29,992 nucleotides of DNA from a virus. Location: positions 1-29,992 of IMG/VR virus record IMGVR_UViG_3300009509_000167; one strand, given 5' to 3'. The notes under the pieces are model-generated. The model was given only the letters and a program-made list of their open reading frames with translations. It searched no databases and was not told where the DNA came from. Position 1 is the stretch's first letter; the number at the start of each line of letters is the position of its first letter. The translations under genes and the position numbers were made by a program. Positions 8,073-23,394 of this stretch are shown in pieces.

Positions 8073-8282
8073 ATGCTGATCTCCCAAGTGCTCGCACACT
8101 TCTACGGCGGACCCCTCGACGGCGAACGACGACTCCTCTCACCAGCCGATACCAAAACCGGATGGTTCATCCACCGCGCCGGCCCCAGACGACACATCTA
8201 CGAACTCGTCAAAGACTCCTACCGAGAACTGCCCAACGGAAGCGCTAACATCGACGCCATCTACGAAGGACACAACCCATGA
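8073..8282 (+). CDS. Small FYGGPLDG-motif protein, copy 1
   Basis: 69 residues with FYGGPLDGE near 10-18, a HIYEL strand (about 41-45), KDSYRE, and the end DAIYEG. A second gene at 8500-8709 has the same length and the same motif order, so the two are paralogues. Small beta proteins opening with FYGGPxDG are frequent in phage and actinobacterial genomes, with no known role that I can cite. GAGGGGG ribosome site. First gene of the rightward accessory operon. Confidence 0.7.
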   Translation: MLISQVLAHFYGGPLDGERRLLSPADTKTGWFIHRAGPRRHIYELVKDSYRELPNGSANIDAIYEGHNP

Positions 8283-8503
8283 CCTTCCGCGAATGGCTCG
8301 TGAGCGATGAGGCAGCACCGAAGATCCAGGCGATCTCCGACAAGCACAAGGGCATGGCGATCTGCGGAGAATCAGCCGTACCTTTCCTCCAGAGGGTGTG
8401 CTCAGAGGTCTACCACGCCTACCTGGCCGAGGCGCCATACCTGGCCGGGAGATACTGCGCCACCTGCGGCGCGGCCATCGAACCAGGAGTGATCCGAGGA
8501 TGA
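8279..8503 (+). CDS. Hypothetical protein with C-terminal CxxC, 74 residues
   Basis: ATGA overlaps at both ends. The first two thirds are helical; the C-terminus has RYCATCGAAIEPG, one zinc knuckle without a clear second. It may bind metal as a dimer or through its other Cys residues (29 and 41). It separates the two FYGGPLDG paralogues. Family not recognised. Confidence 0.6.
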   Translation: MTFREWLVSDEAAPKIQAISDKHKGMAICGESAVPFLQRVCSEVYHAYLAEAPYLAGRYCATCGAAIEPGVIRG

Positions 8504-8709
8504 GCAAGATTCTCGTGACGTTCTACGGCGGACCACTGGACGGTGGAACAGAAGCCGTCGAGAGCGGGAAGTGCATCGTCCATGAAGTCCGAATGGCAAT
8601 CCACGCTCGACCAAGATGCCACGTCTACGAGTACGACAAGGACTCCTTCACCGAAGACGACTGCGGATGGATCCACGCCAAGGCCATCTACGCCGGAGTC
8701 AAAGAATGA
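8500..8709 (+). CDS. Small FYGGPLDG-motif protein, copy 2
   Basis: 69 residues: ILVTFYGGPLDGG near 4-16, HVYEYDKDSFTE in the middle and KAIYAG at the end, matching the order in the 8073-8282 product. The ATG overlaps the previous stop (ATGA). The upstream open frame is Arg-rich and read from another gene, so the long start is rejected. The pair points to an old duplication with a gene between the copies. Confidence 0.7.
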   Translation: MSKILVTFYGGPLDGGTEAVESGKCIVHEVRMAIHARPRCHVYEYDKDSFTEDDCGWIHAKAIYAGVKE

Positions 8710-8993
8710 TCTACAAGAAAAACGTCGATGACATGCTCGCGGAATTGCTCCAAGTGGACAGAGAGGGAGACATCCGACAGAAGATCCGCATCGAGATGAT
8801 TCCCAGCATGGCCGAGAAGCCCGTGATGGAACTCGAGCAGATCAAGATGTTCTTCGAGATTTTCTCGAAATCACTGATCCAGGACGCCTACACCAGAGCG
8901 TCCATCCGCGCCATCTTCGACATCATCTGCGAGGAAGTCGATGCGCTCATCGCCAAGAAGTTCGCAGCCATAGAGGCGGAGACCAGGGAATGA
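8706..8993 (+). CDS. Hypothetical helical protein, 95 residues
   Basis: The ATG overlaps the previous stop (ATGA). The product is almost entirely helical, with alternating charged and hydrophobic residues through the length (for example QIKMFFEIFSKSLI near 41-54). No metal site or signal is present. The pattern fits a helical bundle or an oligomerising small protein. Not recognised. Confidence 0.6.
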   Translation: MIYKKNVDDMLAELLQVDREGDIRQKIRIEMIPSMAEKPVMELEQIKMFFEIFSKSLIQDAYTRASIRAIFDIICEEVDALIAKKFAAIEAETRE

Positions 8994-9214
8994 ACCGCCG
9001 AGGATTCCTTGGACTCCTGGCCAGAGCAATCGCGACAACGCTCGCCGCCCCAGCTATGCCAAGAATTGTGTTCAGCGACGGCGCAACCAGAACAGCCCTA
9101 CCCTGGGACGAAATCTGCCTCGCCACCGAGAAATGGTTCGCCCCAGCCGTGATCGACCAGATCTTCTCGCAAAACCCACTTGCCGGCCGCCTGAAGGAGA
9201 TGTCCAATGCCTGA
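8990..9214 (+). CDS. Tat-signal-like peptide fused to a copy of the major capsid protein N-terminal arm
   Basis: 74 residues. The start MNRRGFLGLLARAIATTLAA has the twin-arginine pattern RRGFLG, a moderate hydrophobic stretch and Ala/Pro sites for cleavage. Residues 39-68 align without gaps to residues 7-36 of this phage's own major capsid protein (22426-23394): I count 17 identities in 30, including TE, FAP, V.D.IF, NP and RL. The protein stops just after this arm. The ATG overlaps the previous stop (ATGA), so it is translated in the accessory operon. It could modulate capsid assembly or act as a decoy against capsid sensing; both are inference. Whether it is really exported is unknown. Confidence 0.7.
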   Translation: MNRRGFLGLLARAIATTLAAPAMPRIVFSDGATRTALPWDEICLATEKWFAPAVIDQIFSQNPLAGRLKEMSNA

Positions 9215-13278: not shown

Positions 13279-15597
13279 ATGCTCACGTTCAACGAGCGCG
13301 TCGAGTGGATGGCCGACAACCTCAAGATCATCGACAAGCACGCCCGCAAAGCCCCTCTCGTCCTCAACGAAGTCCAGCTCATCCTCGAGGCGTACAAGTG
13401 CCAGTGCGCCGCCGAAGAGCAAATGTGCCGCATCCTCGTCCTCAAGGCCCGCCGGGAGGGTGTTTCGACGTGGGCTGAGGCGACACTGTTCCTGGACGCC
13501 TTCGAGAACGACAATCAGTCGATCCTGATCTGCGCCCACAAGCAGAAGGCCACCGAGTACCTCCTCAGCATGTCCACCCGCTACCACGCCAACCTTCCCG
13601 AGGACATCCGGCCGAAGCTGAGAGCCGCCTCGGCCGGCAAGATCCACTTTGACGCCAACGACTCCTTCCTGCTCGTCGAGACCGCCGGATCTGGCGCCTC
13701 CGCCGGTCGGGCCTTCGGCTTCAACCGCGCGCACTTCTCAGAGCTCGACTCCTGGCCCAACGCCAGCGGAACCTACGGCGCCATCATGCAGACCATCCCG
13801 GACCTGCCTCAGACCGTCGTTATCATCGAATCGACGGCCAACGGCCCGATGCTCATCATGGACGAGCTCTGGACCCAGGCCAGCGCCGGGCGCAGCGAAT
13901 ACAGGCCGTTCTTCTTTGCTTGGCACGAGTTCCACGAGTACGTTCGCAGCATCTCCTGGCGGGACCTTCGCAAGTACGCACCCCGCCAGTGGCTCATGAT
14001 GCACAAGAACTCACTCAGACACTGGGAGAAGCACGATGACACCCTGGGGAGTCGATTCATCGAATCCGGCGGAGTCGATCCAGGAAGAACGTCAGGCGGC
14101 ACTCGAACAGCACATGCTGAAGAGGAGGGACAAAAAGCTCCGAGAATCACTGTCTCAGGGACTTTCGGACTTCCAGGCGTACGCAGCCAGCCAGGGGTAC
14201 GTACACGGACACTTGGTGCCCGTCTTCCTCCCGGATTCGACTTCGATCCCGGAGGCGGAACTCGAGAAGCTGGGAATCATGAGGATCGGGGCGGGGATGA
14301 TGATGCTCAATGCGAGAGTGGACCTCTCGACGGTGAGGGGTCAGCCGTTCATCAGGTTCGTGGCAGCGGTCAGCCTCCCGCAGGAATTGGACTCTCAGGG
14401 CAACCAACTCAAGAAGGCTCGGATAGAACCCCTACTGAACTCGACGGACTTCGAGAGATTGCTCGACCTAACACAGAGCGCTCCGGGCTCCTGAACCTAG
14501 AGCAGGCATATGTGTCGAGCCTGACAGATTACGAACGGGATCTCGCCAAGGAGTTCCCCCACATCACGCTGGACCACGTCAACTGGCTCCGCTACACGCT
14601 CGAATCCAAGTGCAAGGGCGACGAGACCTCCCGACGCCGCGAGTACCCCTCGCGACCAGATGAAGCCTTCGAGGCAACTCAAGCCTACGTGCTGGATCCA
14701 ATGATGCTCTCCTCGTGGAGGAAGTTCGCCGAGGAGAATCCAGGGCACCGGGTGACCATGCTCATCAAGGAGATCCAGGAGGACTACTACGTCGTCGGCT
14801 ACGACTACGACGAGCGCGGAGGGATGATCGAGCTCTATCCCTGGCCGGACGAAGACGGCAAGCTGCGCTTTGTGGACCCGCAGGACCAGTATTGTATGGC
14901 GATCGACTGCGCCCAGGGCATTCCCGGCCAGGAGCACGATGCGACGGTCGGAATCGTGGTCTCGGTCAAGGAGGGCTATCAGGTAGCTGAGTTCCGCGCC
15001 CAGATCCCGGCCGATGATGCCGTCGACCAGCTTGAGCGACTAGCGATATTCTTCAACAGGGCGATAGTGGCGATCGAGATCACGGGAGGCTTCGGCATTC
15101 CTTATATCCGTCACTTCACCGACCGCAAGACTGTGCAGCTCTACGAACGCCAGCAGTTCGACAAAGGCACGAAGCGCTATCTCAAGGTTCCTGGCTGGTC
15201 GACGGACTCCAAGACGCGCCCAGGCATGGTTTCCGAGACCCAGTACGCCACGCGACACGATTCCTGCCAGCTACGATCTATCGCAACTATCGACGAGTGC
15301 CGTACTCTCTGGCGCAACCCGAAGACCGGAAAGGTCGAAGCGCGGCCAGAGTGCCATGACGACGGATGGGCGGCATGGGGCATCGCCCTGAACATGCGCA
15401 ACGAGCTCGCCAAACGCACCCGGGAGAAGCGAAACGCAGAGCTCGAGGAAAATAGCATCCTCGCGAGACTGAATCGACTTGACAAGGAGCAGCGGATTCA
15501 AGCTAGATTTGAGAATATACGAGTGCCGAAGATCCAGGCCCGATTCGTACATGGCAAGGCGGGCCGAAGAGTCGACGGCCGGCGGAGTGTCTTCTGA
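13279..15597 (+). CDS. terL: Terminase large subunit with a ~150-residue overprinted insert
   Basis: This is the ATP-driven motor that packages and cuts phage DNA. N-terminal ATPase: LKARREGVST (55-64) as the Walker A variant of terminases, HFSELDSWP (152-160) as Walker B region, IIESTANG (182-189) as coupling motif. C-terminal RNase H-like nuclease: MAIDCAQG (Asp543), VAIEITGG (Glu600) and HDDGWAAW (Asp694/695). The linker part LTDYERDLAKEF and REYPSRPDEAFEA also fit the family. At 772 residues it is far longer than the usual 450-550. Residues about 253-405 are Gly/Arg/Pro-rich and unlike a folded domain, and another gene is open in the +1 frame there (14036-14494). Both flanks are in the same frame. 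Confidence 0.9.
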   Translation: MLTFNERVEWMADNLKIIDKHARKAPLVLNEVQLILEAYKCQCAAEEQMCRILVLKARREGVSTWAEATLFLDAFENDNQSILICAHKQKATEYLLSMSTRYHANLPEDIRPKLRAASAGKIHFDANDSFLLVETAGSGASAGRAFGFNRAHFSELDSWPNASGTYGAIMQTIPDLPQTVVIIESTANGPMLIMDELWTQASAGRSEYRPFFFAWHEFHEYVRSISWRDLRKYAPRQWLMMHKNSLRHWEKHDDTLGSRFIESGGVDPGRTSGGTRTAHAEEEGQKAPRITVSGTFGLPGVRSQPGVRTRTLGARLPPGFDFDPGGGTREAGNHEDRGGDDDAQCESGPLDGEGSAVHQVRGSGQPPAGIGLSGQPTQEGSDRTPTELDGLREIARPNTERSGLLNLEQAYVSSLTDYERDLAKEFPHITLDHVNWLRYTLESKCKGDETSRRREYPSRPDEAFEATQAYVLDPMMLSSWRKFAEENPGHRVTMLIKEIQEDYYVVGYDYDERGGMIELYPWPDEDGKLRFVDPQDQYCMAIDCAQGIPGQEHDATVGIVVSVKEGYQVAEFRAQIPADDAVDQLERLAIFFNRAIVAIEITGGFGIPYIRHFTDRKTVQLYERQQFDKGTKRYLKVPGWSTDSKTRPGMVSETQYATRHDSCQLRSIATIDECRTLWRNPKTGKVEARPECHDDGWAAWGIALNMRNELAKRTREKRNAELEENSILARLNRLDKEQRIQARFENIRVPKIQARFVHGKAGRRVDGRRSVF
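14036..14494 (+). CDS. Nested 152-residue protein inside the terminase gene, +1 frame
   Basis: The frame looks more like protein than the terminase frame over the same bases: a helical Gln/Glu/Arg/Leu-rich N-terminal third (EERQAALEQHMLKRRDKKL near 17-35), VHGHLVPVFLPD, a mixed centre with GIMRIGAGMMMLNARVDL, the strand FIRFVAAVSLP (about 104-114), and a helical acidic end. GGGAG precedes the ATG with suitable spacing. It has no known homing-nuclease motif and I do not recognise it. It may be an acquired gene whose insertion kept the terminase frame open, or a true overprinted gene. Confidence 0.6.
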   Translation: MTPWGVDSSNPAESIQEERQAALEQHMLKRRDKKLRESLSQGLSDFQAYAASQGYVHGHLVPVFLPDSTSIPEAELEKLGIMRIGAGMMMLNARVDLSTVRGQPFIRFVAAVSLPQELDSQGNQLKKARIEPLLNSTDFERLLDLTQSAPGS

Positions 15598-16154: not shown

Positions 16155-16174
16155 CAGGACCCCACGGAGCGATG

Positions 16175-18028
16175 ATGGCACTCGCGGTCGAACACGAGTT
16201 CGTACCCGGCTTCCAGCGCAGCACCCGACCACTTTTCGTCCTTCCTGGCAAGCACAGCAAGGCACGGATAAACCGTCCTGAGTCGGAAATTGTCGCATTC
16301 GGCGAAGCTCTCTACCAGATGGCCCGCCAGTACCGAGATACCACCCTCGGAATGCGCGACCGTTGGGAGACTCATCGTAGCTGGTATCTTGAGTCCTACA
16401 ACTCACATCTTCAGGGAACCTACCTCACCGGGCAGACGACTGAAAACCTGATCGCTGAGAAGATCGACCACCTCGCAGCGCAGCTCACCGACGGGGAACC
16501 CCGCATCCTCTACTTGCCAGAGTCCCAGGCCGACATCGCCTTCACCAAGATAGCCAACGACGCGATTCAGCACGTCTGGGGCGCCCAAGACATGGATACG
16601 CTCGTCTATGAGACGATCCATCCGACCCTGCGCTACGGGACGTGGTACTGGAAGCTAGTGCACGACCCACGCTACGGCCACACAGGTGGAATCGTCCGCT
16701 TCCTGCCGATTCCCGTCTGGAGGATCTACCCAGCCCCGTACGCCACAGACCCAGCGACGGCGCCCTGGATGATCGAAGTGCAGATCCGAACCGTCGGTGA
16801 GATCCTCAACGATTACGGGGTGCATGTCGATCCCGAGATCGCGAGCTCGCAGGAGTTCTCGCCGATTGAAGACCACCTGAAGAGCTATCCCATCTCGAAC
16901 GTCGTGAAAACCGTACCAGAGCCTGGCGGCCCGTACGCTGGCGGCGAGACCGTTCCGTCAGTGCCCGATTCCTACCTCTCCCCCTACGGAGAGGGCGGTG
17001 GCCTCGTCTGCCAGAAAGAGCTCTGGATCCGGGATGGCGCGACGACCCCGCAGTTCTGGATGGAGCACCGAAAGCACGACTCCGTTCTGAGACGGACGCA
17101 CACATTGAAGTACCCAGGTGGCCGCGTGATGTCTTGGGCGAACGGACGGTTGCTCTACGATCGGCCGAATCCGTACGCCGACGGCGAGTTTCCCTACGTG
17201 AAGTTCTACGACGGCTTCATCGACGACTTCTGGTACGGCCTCGGGGAAACCGAGGGACTCATCAATCTCCAGATGCTCCACAACGACACTCACGACATGC
17301 TCAAGCTCATGCACCTCTACACGGCGATGGGACGACTCATCGTCGACCAGTCTACGGGCCTAGACGAGGGGTCCATGAGCAACACGCCGGGCGAGGTCTG
17401 GGTCACGGATCCAGGGACCTTCGACCGCGTTCGTTGGCTCGAAGGAGGGCGCGTGCCCGCGGAGGTATACAACTATCTCCACACTCTGGAGCAGGCGGCT
17501 GATAACCGAACTGGCTCACCTGATGTCACTCGTGGCATCAACCCTACGGGGGTAACTGCTGGTAAGGCTTTGATGTCCCTGCGAGCGGCCGCAAATGTCC
17601 GCATCCGTTCACGACACAAAGGGACAAAGCGTGCCTTCTCGCGGGCTGCTCGCCTGTTCGCGTCGCGCATCCAGCAGTTCTGGCCGGATGAGCTCTTGCT
17701 CTCCATCCTCGGGCCAGAGCGCCGCGCCCTCCTTGAGAATGACCAAGTCCAGTTCCGCCAGTACCAGCTCACACCAGAAGCGCGCATGGCGAACTATCAC
17801 GTGCGCGTCGACCCTGGAATCAACCTCGAGGAGCTCCGCGAAGCAGAGTTCCAGACCCTGATGATGTTCTACTCCATGGGAATCCTGCCGCCAGAGATGC
17901 TCATCGAGGGCTCGAATCTTCACAACCGGGAAGAGATTCTCTCTTGGCTCCCGGTCATGATGGCCCGCCAGAGAATGATGGCGAGCCAAGGGGGTGCAGC
18001 AGCACCCCAGGGAGGACAGGCAAAATGA
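16175..18028 (+). CDS. Portal protein
   Basis: Forms the twelve-subunit ring through which DNA enters and leaves the head. The length (about 617) and layout fit podovirus portals: a helical start (YQMARQYRDTTLGMRDRWETHRSWYLESY), a core with AEKIDHLAAQLTDGEPRILY, conserved WYWKLVHDPRYG and PIPVWRIYPAPYATDP, a long crown-side segment around ETEGLINLQMLHNDTHDMLK, and late helices with GTKRAFSRAARLFASRIQQFW. GGAG precedes ATG 16175 by five bases; ATG 16172 is too close. The stop overlaps the next gene (ATGA). Family firm. Confidence 0.88.
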   Translation: MALAVEHEFVPGFQRSTRPLFVLPGKHSKARINRPESEIVAFGEALYQMARQYRDTTLGMRDRWETHRSWYLESYNSHLQGTYLTGQTTENLIAEKIDHLAAQLTDGEPRILYLPESQADIAFTKIANDAIQHVWGAQDMDTLVYETIHPTLRYGTWYWKLVHDPRYGHTGGIVRFLPIPVWRIYPAPYATDPATAPWMIEVQIRTVGEILNDYGVHVDPEIASSQEFSPIEDHLKSYPISNVVKTVPEPGGPYAGGETVPSVPDSYLSPYGEGGGLVCQKELWIRDGATTPQFWMEHRKHDSVLRRTHTLKYPGGRVMSWANGRLLYDRPNPYADGEFPYVKFYDGFIDDFWYGLGETEGLINLQMLHNDTHDMLKLMHLYTAMGRLIVDQSTGLDEGSMSNTPGEVWVTDPGTFDRVRWLEGGRVPAEVYNYLHTLEQAADNRTGSPDVTRGINPTGVTAGKALMSLRAAANVRIRSRHKGTKRAFSRAARLFASRIQQFWPDELLLSILGPERRALLENDQVQFRQYQLTPEARMANYHVRVDPGINLEELREAEFQTLMMFYSMGILPPEMLIEGSNLHNREEILSWLPVMMARQRMMASQGGAAAPQGGQAK

Positions 18029-19716
18029 GAATCCTACTCTCGGCAATCTGCTTCCTTGTGCTCGTCACGATCTTCCTGGCGAGCAACTACTGGTCAGCAA
18101 CGGCCGATCAGCTTCCGACCTCCGTGGCAGTCGGATCCTTCTCTGGATCAGCTCCGGACAGCTCAGAAACGGGATGCGTCCCGACAGCTCGAGTCCTGGC
18201 CTTGACAGACAAGTCGGCCGAGATCCAGGCGAACATAAATCAGATGTTCGTTCGGGGTGGCGGAACTTACATCATCCTTGAGGGCGACCATGCAATCGAC
18301 ACCCCCTGTACCCTGAAGTTCGGAGTCAGTGTTCTGGGTGTGGGCAGAGACGCGACTACCATCTACATGAGGAAGAACAATCCGGCATTCGTCGTGGATC
18401 CGGACAGCATGGAGTGGTTTACCTCAGGCGGAGGCTGGTCTGGAACGATGCGAAGGTCCATCACTAGAGAATGGATGCTCGGCAATATGCAGATCAGCGG
18501 CAACCTCGCCTACTGCGAAGATTCCACGTCACAGCACGGGCTCTCCATCGTTCTTAGGAGAACCGCTACTGACGAGTGGCACGCAGTCACGGACTTCATC
18601 GTCAACAACGTCGCCTTCAAAAATCTTGGTGGTTCCGGAGTCCACATCGAGTGTGCTGGCGATACCTGCGCGAGCGGGCTTGCCAACTGTATGTATGCCA
18701 ACTACGGAGTCTTCCGGGACTGCGACTTCCGCCAGCTCAACGCGAACTCGCTCTACATGAAGGGAAGGAACATCTTCCTTCAGTTCGACAACTGCAACTT
18801 CCGCCAGCCATACAACGGAACCGGCTACTACACAGGAATCACTAATCCGGACGGCAACCCGTGGAAATACTACTGGAACGTGATGATCGTCGATCACTAC
18901 CAGTCAGACGCCGAATGGGGTCGCGCGAATGGCATCGAGTTCGACCGCTGTGACTTCGAGTCGAGCACGTACGACTCTGGTGGCACATGGGTCAGCGGCG
19001 GGGTCTACATCCAGAATCACATGGGCTACGTTCACTTCGAGGACTGCTGGTTCGAGAACCTGGCGTCTGTCGACGTGCCCTGGCGTTGCATCTACGTCGA
19101 CTCAACTCGCGCCGACGGCGGGCTGTGGACATGGTACAGATTCAAGAACAACCGATCCCTGAGCATCAAGAACTGCAACTTCCAGGGGATGCACTACAGT
19201 CCTGCGCTCGTTCAGGTTACGGGAAGCCTTGCCAGCTTCGAGATGACGGGAAGTCACTTTATCTACGCCGGCAACGAGCTCGATACCGCGCACGTGAGGC
19301 TCGATGGGCACGTAGTCGAAGCCTTGGTGACTGACCGAGAGGAGTGGCACCATCTATTCACAGGCCCAGCACCGAACTTCGCCGGCATCACGTACGTCGG
19401 GATCTCGGCCGGAGACACTTCGGCTACCTACAGAGGTCTCTATCTCGAGGAAGACACCGTGCTTGACATGGTCGACTGGAACTCGAGCGACTTCGCTAGT
19501 GCACCGAACTGCACGGTACTGGTCTACAAGAACGGGAATACTCGGGTGACGGCGATCCCCTGGGGAGGGGCCAACGGGAAGAAGGACCAACTCCGGTTGC
19601 CGCTCAAGGCTGGAGATGTCCTGAACGTCATCTGCAAGGCCAAGGCGGCTTCGCCAGAGAATCCAGATTACCCGTTCATTCAGCTCTGGTTGCGGCCTGC
19701 AAAGGGGAGCTGGTGA
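18025..19716 (+). CDS. Right-handed beta-helix protein with signal peptide
   Basis: N-terminus MRILLSAICFLVLVTIFLAS is a typical Sec signal or signal anchor. From about 75, EIQANINQMFVRGGGTYIIL and then GVSVLGVGRDATTIYM match the opening coils of pectate-lyase-like beta-helices; repeated coils with N/D/G turns (FKNLGGSGVHI, FRDCDFRQLNANSLYM, FDNCNFRQ, FEDCWFEN, IKNCNFQG) continue to about 420. A C-terminal sheet domain follows. Phage beta-helices are usually tailspikes that bind or cut surface glycans and need no signal; here the signal and the place right after the portal are odd. ATGA overlap with the portal stop. Substrate unknown. Confidence 0.75.
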   Translation: MRILLSAICFLVLVTIFLASNYWSATADQLPTSVAVGSFSGSAPDSSETGCVPTARVLALTDKSAEIQANINQMFVRGGGTYIILEGDHAIDTPCTLKFGVSVLGVGRDATTIYMRKNNPAFVVDPDSMEWFTSGGGWSGTMRRSITREWMLGNMQISGNLAYCEDSTSQHGLSIVLRRTATDEWHAVTDFIVNNVAFKNLGGSGVHIECAGDTCASGLANCMYANYGVFRDCDFRQLNANSLYMKGRNIFLQFDNCNFRQPYNGTGYYTGITNPDGNPWKYYWNVMIVDHYQSDAEWGRANGIEFDRCDFESSTYDSGGTWVSGGVYIQNHMGYVHFEDCWFENLASVDVPWRCIYVDSTRADGGLWTWYRFKNNRSLSIKNCNFQGMHYSPALVQVTGSLASFEMTGSHFIYAGNELDTAHVRLDGHVVEALVTDREEWHHLFTGPAPNFAGITYVGISAGDTSATYRGLYLEEDTVLDMVDWNSSDFASAPNCTVLVYKNGNTRVTAIPWGGANGKKDQLRLPLKAGDVLNVICKAKAASPENPDYPFIQLWLRPAKGSW

Positions 19717-19717
19717 G

Positions 19718-20086
19718 ATGAAACGAATCGCAGTATTTCTCGTCTCCGTTTTCGTCGTCTGTATGCTCGCGACAGGAGCATCGCCGAAGCCGCACGCGAT
19801 CTTCGTGATAAACACCTTCGGCATGAAGTATTTCCCCAAGCCCTCGCTGAACATCAGCTCTGCGTTGTATTCCTTCCAATCGACGGCTGCCCCCTACGTG
19901 AGCTTTAGTCGCATATCCGGTCTCAACAACATGGTTCTCGCACTCTACTCGAGTGATTTCGCGGCTGGCGTCGACACTATTCGCGTGGGCACAGTTATCG
20001 TGGAGTACGAATACGGGACGATTGATTCTGTCGCCGTCGTCGCCCTGAACGGTGCCACTGTCCAGGTCGAGGCGATCTGGAAATAG
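19718..20086 (+). CDS. Exported small beta protein, paralogue A
   Basis: Signal peptide MKRIAVFLVSVFVVCMLATG. The mature part is beta-rich and ends with LALYSSDFAAGVDTIRVG and GATVQVEAIWK, a pattern repeated in the next two products (20096 and 20502). One base separates it from the beta-helix stop; the start follows GGGGAGCTGGTGAG. Three such paralogues in a row, each with its own signal, indicate local duplication. Family not recognised. Likely location is the host periplasm, outer face or membrane. Confidence 0.7.
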   Translation: MKRIAVFLVSVFVVCMLATGASPKPHAIFVINTFGMKYFPKPSLNISSALYSFQSTAAPYVSFSRISGLNNMVLALYSSDFAAGVDTIRVGTVIVEYEYGTIDSVAVVALNGATVQVEAIWK

Positions 20087-20095
20087 GAGGTCGCC

Positions 20096-20494
20096 ATGAG
20101 ACTCAGATCGGTCCTCGCCCTTGCGTTCCTGATTCTTCTGGCTGTTCAGGTGCTGGGCAAGCCACACTGGTATCATGCCTACGGAAGCACGGCCACCGGC
20201 TCGATGATCTACTTCCCTAGCCATGCGTCCGGGCTCTCGCTCTGCACCTCGGCAGACACGTTCCCCAACGGGGTGCTAAAAAACGCCTCTCCAACCTATG
20301 TCACGATCGCGATTGTGAGCGGCGGCGGGCCCGTCCTGATGACTCTCTATAGCAGCGATTTCCCCGCCGACTCGGCTAGGGTGACGCTTCGCTCGAATGT
20401 ATATCGCTTCGAGAATGGCGCCCTTGACTCGCTTCTCTTCATCTCCTTCAACAGCGGTCTCGACACTGTTCAGATTGAGGCCGCTTGGAAGTAG
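20096..20494 (+). CDS. Exported small beta protein, paralogue B
   Basis: Signal peptide RSVLALAFLILLAVQVLG. The mature part has ADTFPNGVLKNASPTYV, then LMTLYSSDFPADSARVTLR and the end VQIEAAWK. It shares the LYSSDF segment with paralogue A and ADTFP.G.LK..SPT with paralogue C. GGAGG precedes the ATG. Not recognised beyond the local family. Confidence 0.7.
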   Translation: MRLRSVLALAFLILLAVQVLGKPHWYHAYGSTATGSMIYFPSHASGLSLCTSADTFPNGVLKNASPTYVTIAIVSGGGPVLMTLYSSDFPADSARVTLRSNVYRFENGALDSLLFISFNSGLDTVQIEAAWK

Positions 20495-21405: not shown

Positions 21406-22359
21406 ATGCCAGAGGACTCCATTCTAAGCGAAGGAAGCCCGATCCATCCGCTGATCCAAGCCCAGCAGGCGTCGGACGCTGCCGCGGCGGCACACGCGCC
21501 AGCAGGGCTCGCGGCAATCACGCAGATGGGCAATCCGGGCCAAGCCGAAGCCCCAGCAGCCCAGGCACAACGATCTGTGACTCCCCAAGGCACGCAGACG
21601 CCCGCGCAGCCCAATCTCCCCGAGACCCCACCGAATATGGTGGAGATCGGTGGAAAGGCGTATCCGGTCGACGAGGTGCTCAAGTGGAGAGACCGCGGCC
21701 TCATGCACCAGGACTACACCCGGAAGACCCAGGCGCTGGCCGAGGGCCGCCGAGAGGTAGCCGACGTGCTCGATGAAGTCCGTAACCTGCGACACGAGCT
21801 CCAGACCGAGAAGGAAGAGCTCCAGAGGTTACGTGAGATCCCCGAGCCGGACGACGAACTCTCAGGCTACGAAGAGCTCGAGGGCCAGTATCCGGGGCTT
21901 GCGTCGGTGATGAAGCGCCAGGAGCTGAGGACCGCAAGACTGGAACAGGCGCTTGCGAGAGAAGCTCAGGAGCGCAAGGACGCGCTCGAGAGGAGTCAGC
22001 GCGAATCAGCCCAACGTCTGGAAAACGAAAGGCTGAGTGCTGAACTTCAGGAGCTTCGCGACATGCCAGGATTCGACGAGGCAGAGGTGCTGAACGTCAT
22101 GCGTCAGCGCGGAATCGCCCATCCCCGGGACGCCTTCATGGCAATCCACGGGATGTCGATCGGGCGTGTCATCGGTCAGCGAGAGCTTGTGGAGCGCGGA
22201 GGGTCCGCCGCACCCGTGATGGGCGCCGGCCAGACCCAAGTGTCCCCGTCGTTCCAGCAGACGGGCAGGGTGCAAGCTGGACAGTTTGACCCCGCCCAGA
22301 CCGACTGGAACTCAATCCGAGACGAGGCACAGCGCCAGGCGGGATACCCGCCAGGCTAG
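21406..22359 (+). CDS. Scaffolding protein candidate
   Basis: Disordered Ala/Gln/Pro-rich N-terminus (1-75), a small folded segment with VEIGGKAYPVDEVLKWRDRG (79-98), then a long Glu/Arg/Gln coiled coil (about 110-225), and a Gly/Gln tail. A charged coiled-coil protein directly before the major capsid gene is the normal place and shape of a podovirus scaffold, which shapes the procapsid and then leaves. The N-terminal residues YTRKTQALAEGRREV also resemble phage head scaffolds. GGAGC site before ATG. Call rests on shape and order. Confidence 0.7.
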   Translation: MPEDSILSEGSPIHPLIQAQQASDAAAAAHAPAGLAAITQMGNPGQAEAPAAQAQRSVTPQGTQTPAQPNLPETPPNMVEIGGKAYPVDEVLKWRDRGLMHQDYTRKTQALAEGRREVADVLDEVRNLRHELQTEKEELQRLREIPEPDDELSGYEELEGQYPGLASVMKRQELRTARLEQALAREAQERKDALERSQRESAQRLENERLSAELQELRDMPGFDEAEVLNVMRQRGIAHPRDAFMAIHGMSIGRVIGQRELVERGGSAAPVMGAGQTQVSPSFQQTGRVQAGQFDPAQTDWNSIRDEAQRQAGYPPG

Positions 22360-22425: not shown

Positions 22426-23394
22426 ATGTCGCTAAACTCCCTGTACGACGAGCTGGCGACCGCGACCGAGGACTACTTCGCGCCAAAGGTGGTCGACAAC
22501 ATCTTCAAGTCGAACCCCTTCGCGTTGAGACTTCGCGCGAACGCCCAGACTCTGGGAGGCGGCCTCACGATCAACATGCCCATGATCTACAAGACGGGAT
22601 CGGGCGAGTGGATCGGTGAGTGGCAGACGTTTGACGCTGAGTACGAAGAGGAAGTCGGCGCGGCTCAACTGGACTGGAAAATCTACACGACCGGAGTGGT
22701 CTTGTCGGCTCTCCAGCTCCTGAAGAACGCCGATGCGCCGACGCGGCGTTTCGACCTGGCGAAGATCAAGAACATCGTCGCCGCGAAGCGCTGTGCGCAC
22801 AATCTGGGGCAGGCCGTGTTCGACCTGAACGATGGCGCCCTGGATGCCAAAGCCGTCGATTCGCTTGACCTGGCCGTTTCGGACTCCACCGAGACCGGAA
22901 CGACTTACGCGGGGATCACCCGCACGGGCTCGGGCGATGTCGCGGTCTGGGATGCCAACATCTCTTCGGCCTCCGCGCTCACCCTCGAGGCGCTCCAGGA
23001 TCTCTGGGGCGACTGCGAAGAAGGTGATGAGTCCCCGGACTTCAACGTCACTTGCCAAGCCAACTTCAACAGGTACTGGAACCTTCTGACGCCGATGCAG
23101 CGTCTCGGCTCCGATCTGATGGGCAAGGCTGGCTTCCGGAGTCTTCAGTTCAACGGTACGCCGGTCGTGGTCGACAGCCACGTCTCGAGCGTCGCCGGCG
23201 GCGGCTCCTACGATTACTGGTACATGCTGAACATGGCGCACGTGATTCTGCGGCCGCACCGGCTGGCGTTCTACAAGTTCATGCGCAGCGTGATGCCCTG
23301 GAATCAGTGGGTCGCCCTCGGTCGGTACTTCTTCGTTGGCAACCTCTGTGTGGACGCTCCGCGCTACCAGGGGAAAGCCAAGTTCACGAGTTAG
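22426..23394 (+). CDS. Major capsid protein
   Basis: The shell-forming protein of HK97-like fold. N-terminal arm (1-40) with DYFAPKVVDNIFKSNP; then LTINMPMIYKTGSGEWIGEW as first core strands, a helical spine around LALLKN-type segments (about 95-130), and late strands PVVVDSHVSSV and YWYMLNMAHVILRPH leading to a conserved end RYFFVGNLCVDAPRYQG. Length 322 suits podovirus capsid proteins. It lies after the scaffold candidate. Its leader has two short hairpins, one pairing the start region. The N-terminal arm is copied in the small gene at 8990-9214. Confidence 0.82.
   Translation: MSLNSLYDELATATEDYFAPKVVDNIFKSNPFALRLRANAQTLGGGLTINMPMIYKTGSGEWIGEWQTFDAEYEEEVGAAQLDWKIYTTGVVLSALQLLKNADAPTRRFDLAKIKNIVAAKRCAHNLGQAVFDLNDGALDAKAVDSLDLAVSDSTETGTTYAGITRTGSGDVAVWDANISSASALTLEALQDLWGDCEEGDESPDFNVTCQANFNRYWNLLTPMQRLGSDLMGKAGFRSLQFNGTPVVVDSHVSSVAGGGSYDYWYMLNMAHVILRPHRLAFYKFMRSVMPWNQWVALGRYFFVGNLCVDAPRYQGKAKFTS

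Follow-up and report, generated by a model that had tools for sequence, protein, structure and literature searches.

The window, the whole 29,992-nucleotide stretch of viral DNA analysed here, contains at positions 8990 to 9214 an ORF for a 74-amino acid protein, MNRRGFLGLLARAIATTLAAPAMPRIVFSDGATRTALPWDEICLATEKWFAPAVIDQIFSQNPLAGRLKEMSNA. Other small genes cluster around it, and the packaging and head genes follow 3' of this cluster; the ORF shares an ATGA overlap with the upstream ORF and an 8-base overlap with the downstream ORF, all co-directional. In the product of this gene, a Tat-like or membrane-type leader and a short linker are followed by a stretch that mimics, after long divergence, the arm at the N-terminus of the major capsid protein (MCP) of this phage. 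The relevant features are as follows.

8990–9214, plus strand: 74-aa leader-plus-capsid-arm protein (ORF translation and MCP alignment)
8990–9064, plus strand: RRGFLG Tat-like leader, residues 1–25 (TIGR01409, 15.1 bits, cutoff 16.7; predicted helix at residues 3–18, low confidence)
9065–9100, plus strand: linker, residues 26–37, predicted beta hairpin (AF2, single sequence, mean pLDDT 52, a hint only)
9104–9196, plus strand: copy of the MCP N-terminal arm, residues 39–69 (alignment to MCP residues 7–37)
13279–15597, plus strand: terminase large subunit, start of the structural module (context; phrog_2, E 9e-10)
16172–18028, plus strand: portal protein (context; phrog_156, E 1e-31)
21406–22359, plus strand: head scaffolding protein (context; phrog_3927, E 8e-7)
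22426–23394, plus strand: MCP, HK97 fold (phrog_9953 'major head protein', E 3e-42; Foldseek of the family model, Mic1 capsid 6j3q, E 7e-11)
22444–22536, plus strand: parent segment, MCP residues 7–37, three N-terminal helices before the first strand (alignment and family model)

Two sets of paralogues were also observed in the window. Neighbouring small ORFs at 8073–8282 and 8398–8709 have a YGGPLDG motif in common and are paralogue-like (score 102), and adjacent ORFs at 19718–20086 and 20096–20494, directly upstream of the scaffold and capsid genes, are tandem paralogues (score 131), each beginning with a hydrophobic signal-like stretch; a PHROG search with the first of these (19718–20086) returned no match.

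A preliminary description of this DNA, made from the sequence alone, had proposed that the small protein copies the capsid arm and that the copy ends with the arm, and had named a lack of significance against shuffled sequences as a refutation. Both proposals are borne out, and the resemblance is significant. Residues 39 to 69 align without gaps to MCP residues 7 to 37 with 17 of 31 positions identical and a BLOSUM62 score of 92, as compared to a mean of 27 (sd 4.3) and a maximum of 58 in 20,000 shuffles (Gumbel p 2.7e-9). The family model of the MCP has an HK97 fold, nearest to the Mic1 capsid, in which three N-terminal helices precede the first strand, and the copied stretch covers just these three predicted helices, a whole structural unit, and stops before the strand. 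The only PHROG match of the small protein is again phrog_9953, a weak hit (E 0.22) placing residues 36 to 70 on profile positions 6 to 40, and in a low-confidence AF2 model a leader helix is followed by a hairpin linker and then by three helices, ordered as in the MCP. The protein is not a full-length HK97-fold shell protein of the phrog_9953 type, being 74 aa long with the arm alone in common. Chance or composition as the source of the match is ruled out by the shuffles and by the control ORFs described below. Over the copied stretch the two genes have 57% nucleotide identity, with 13 of 31 third positions identical, indicating that the copy is old; the third codon positions rule out a recent duplication of the MCP arm.

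Closer relatives of this phage were searched for the same pair of genes, as the preliminary description had suggested. No convincing arm copy was found in the 12 MCP-related records tested, nor was one present near further capsid loci (80 loci, 1.07 Mb). The small protein had no tblastn match in cultured phages and plasmids, and the P0001 search of viral contigs returned leader-level relatives only. The arm motif occurs at 15 loci in viral contigs, every one a capsid N-terminus, and at seven loci in bacterial genomes, two with the motif inside an ORF, neither of them capsid-like nor leader-like. A literature search found no paper on leader-fused capsid segments. Among the MCP relatives covered the pair is absent, which is one of the observations that the preliminary description had named as refuting its reading. 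Many other phages nevertheless have, independently, the combination of a leader with a segment of the own capsid, and this recurrence speaks for a functional link between the two genes.

The first such case, on the 43-kb contig G001, came from a scan for MNRRGFLG: a small ORF there has residues 38 to 75 matching residues 8 to 45 of the capsid of the same phage (score 138), a distant member of phrog_9953. The window and G001 tails each fit the capsid of their own phage, whereas swapping the capsids gives scores of 27 and 28. A wider RRxFL scan together with fetched records gave, under simple detection rules, 118 leader ORFs, including a few near-duplicates (109 unique tails) and drawn from viral contigs that are often fragments. 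Set against every ORF of the record it came from, the tail matched an ORF of at least 200 aa at E<1e-4 for 16 of the 118, as against 2 of 656 control small ORFs taken from the same records (Fisher p 4e-12). An MCP was identified in 28 records; of the 33 leader ORFs in these, 18 matched their own MCP at p<0.001, as did 0 of 224 controls. The test is partly biased, as about half of the MCPs had been found via such matches; where they had not, four leader ORFs reach the threshold even so. Of the 15 leader ORFs that match their own MCP, 12 score no lower with it than with any other of about 100 MCPs. Three tails (L274, L281 and L285) had been read as capsid pieces beforehand, and a search of their own records then gave a large matching ORF for each; four others (L282, L252, L218 and L409) had no partner in theirs. 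A second leader type, MTRRxFL, yielded 19 candidate ORFs, many with unconvincing leaders and few from whole records, none of which matched its own locus; L409, from this set, has only a weak match in the capsid pool.

The window protein has an RRxFL leader and a tail whose similarity to a virion protein from its own record is significant, and so belongs to a recurrent class of small phage proteins carrying virion-protein segments, most often of the MCP, that selection maintains at protein level. At least a dozen other phages, with unrelated shells, have this architecture, a sign of an undescribed class of proteins acting on assembly or sensing. In the 12 same-strand cases the capsid gene lies about 1 to 18 kb 3' of the leader gene; G060 and G061 have the leader gene on the other side of the capsid gene in their contigs, possibly owing to circular permutation.

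The description of the N-terminus as a Tat-like signal holds only in part. The window leader has the RRxFL motif (RRGFLG), but its 15.1 bits fall below the curated TIGR01409 cutoff of 16.7, R12 interrupts the hydrophobic run and the longest uncharged stretch is 12 residues, as compared to at least 13 in 105 of the 118 leaders. Four of nine other leader proteins scanned with TIGR01409 reach 16.7. The leaders of the class resemble a Tat signal, that of the window protein marginally so, and its Tat export is putative. Linkers that recur independently of cargo follow the hydrophobic part at many loci (for example L062, L227, L243 and L274), namely LDPERLLWVPGxKxISIP, RVWSFP and RTIFLPPxGGW.

The identification of the cargo as an N-terminal arm is correct for the window and too narrow for the class, in which the copied part may also be internal to the capsid protein, at its C-terminus or from a different virion protein. 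Partners of leader ORFs are mostly MCPs of several families, classified by PHROGs as phrog_9953, 283, 14242, 267 and 334 plus a head/protease type, and non-MCP partners comprise portal, tape measure, tail fibre, tail spike and another virion structural protein. Two overlapping leader genes in L290 (G028; 17839–18312 and 18309–18743) match residues 3 to 63 and 80 to 121 of the same coat protein. The L264 small protein itself matches the NCBIfam major capsid model (E 7e-5), the L210 tail matches annotated coat proteins of cultured phages, and the partner ORFs of G060 and G062 align as capsids. Further resemblances were noted between leader tails and the C-terminal motif of the own-record tape measure (L349/L350, G035), a piece of an own-record 782-aa unclassified protein (L370/L372, G036) and the tail-spike region of an own-record protein (L384, G009). 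In L364 (G007; 18557–18808 and 19157–19327) the tail of the leader ORF is 87% identical to the start of the neighbouring HTH gene, a non-virion cargo and the only clearly recent copy seen.

Of 18 aligned leader ORFs, 17 have an identity to the parent of about 0.24 to 0.52 at third positions and of 0.26 to 0.72 in amino acids. Among close pairs that carry capsid segments, G042/L281 alone was usable; the capsids of the two are 98% identical, and dN/dS is 0.07 overall and 0.085 in the tail. Near-random third positions in nearly all copies, together with the low dN/dS of this one pair, point to old copies maintained by selection. The same data make it very improbable that the tails are functionless by-products of gene birth, in which leader ORFs trap fragments of other phage genes: heterogeneous cargo and the recent-looking G007 copy are in keeping with this already disfavoured explanation, but neutral fragments should lose protein similarity after synonymous saturation, which these 17 have kept, the testable tail is constrained, and the cargo is strongly biased to virion proteins, chiefly capsid.

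The function of the small protein is probably competition with its parent segment during head assembly. Encoded 5' of the packaging and head genes, it is probably expressed earlier than the MCP. Its leader would then send it to the inner membrane or export it, and the arm mimic would occupy the partner of the real arm, which may be the scaffold, a neighbouring capsid subunit or a chaperone. Such occupancy would tune or delay head assembly, or keep related phages in a shared cell from assembling. Cargo is not always an N-terminal arm and sometimes comes from tail proteins, and therefore no single assembly step explains all members of the class; a membrane-directed mimic competing in virion assembly appears to be the most economical reading of the sequences. 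Taken as a whole, the best explanation, to which we assign a probability of about 0.4, is a leader-bearing arm mimic, one of a recurrent and selected class, in competition with its parent segment during assembly. Counting against it are the marginal Tat recognition of this member and the absence of the gene from the close MCP relatives searched.

An unlikely alternative is that the segments serve superinfection exclusion as dominant-negative inhibitors of head or tail assembly by competitors, the phage's own protein having diverged enough to escape. This would be consistent with capsid copies that are never recent (26 to 72% identical), with a window tail that fits the capsid of a relative (L008) slightly better than its own (97 vs 92), and with cargo that includes tape measure, portal and fibre pieces; in addition, a prophage protein, Tab, is known to block tail assembly by way of the tape measure protein (PMC10884400). 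Selection for a foreign target, however, predicts that the own MCP should not be the best match, and mostly it is.

The agreement with the own MCP in most cases, and its joining to a leader, would also fit an anchored segment that plugs into the growing shell and so places or nucleates proheads at the inner membrane. Capsids dock at membranes in some phages, which counts in favour of this possibility, but tail-protein cargo and copies of widely separated capsid segments are unexplained by it, and we regard it as decidedly doubtful. Quite improbable, too, is a decoy role in which the segment titrates, or pulls to the membrane, host receptors recognising MCP, portal or tail proteins. Bacterial systems do sense the MCP, among them CapRel (PMC9712102) and a TIR-based system (PMC11312562), and the gene is 5' of the capsid gene in the window and in most same-strand cases. 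A capsid peptide can, however, itself activate a sensor, as for the Gol peptide and Lit (cited in PMC9712102), and a free fragment therefore risks triggering the sensor rather than hiding from it.

Competition of the mimic with its parent segment remains our preferred function for the window protein. It is rather likely that a class of small genes, widespread among tailed phages, modular and so far undescribed, uses a Tat-like leader to present a mimic, kept by selection, of an own virion segment, chiefly of the MCP, as a means of controlling assembly, competitors or host sensing. Phages would then have a new way of steering assembly, competing with relatives or coping with capsid sensing by host immunity. 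Small genes with a leader and no known function abound in phage genomes, and if many of these are mimics of own virion proteins, each sequence names its likely target and the functions of such orphan genes become directly testable.

Several known systems resemble the small protein in part. The phrog_9953 major head proteins (Mx8-like, with a capsid fold as in Mic1) have an N-terminal arm homologous to its tail, but the small protein has 31 residues only and lacks the shell domain. Twin-arginine signal proteins of TIGR01409 are similar in that the window leader matches the model near its cutoff; the window member falls below it, its export is putative and its passenger is a capsid segment. P4 Sid and the capsid-redirecting proteins of satellites are small proteins that alter capsid assembly, as is putative here, but they are not known to be copies of MCP segments behind a leader. 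Tab is likewise a phage-encoded protein acting on virion assembly, as inferred for the 74-aa protein, but is not described in outline as a leader fused to a copy of its target (PMC10884400). The Gol peptide of T4 gp23, which acts with Lit, is a short capsid segment active alone, as the 74-aa protein may be; it is part of a full MCP (cited in PMC9712102), whereas the segment studied here is encoded by a separate gene.
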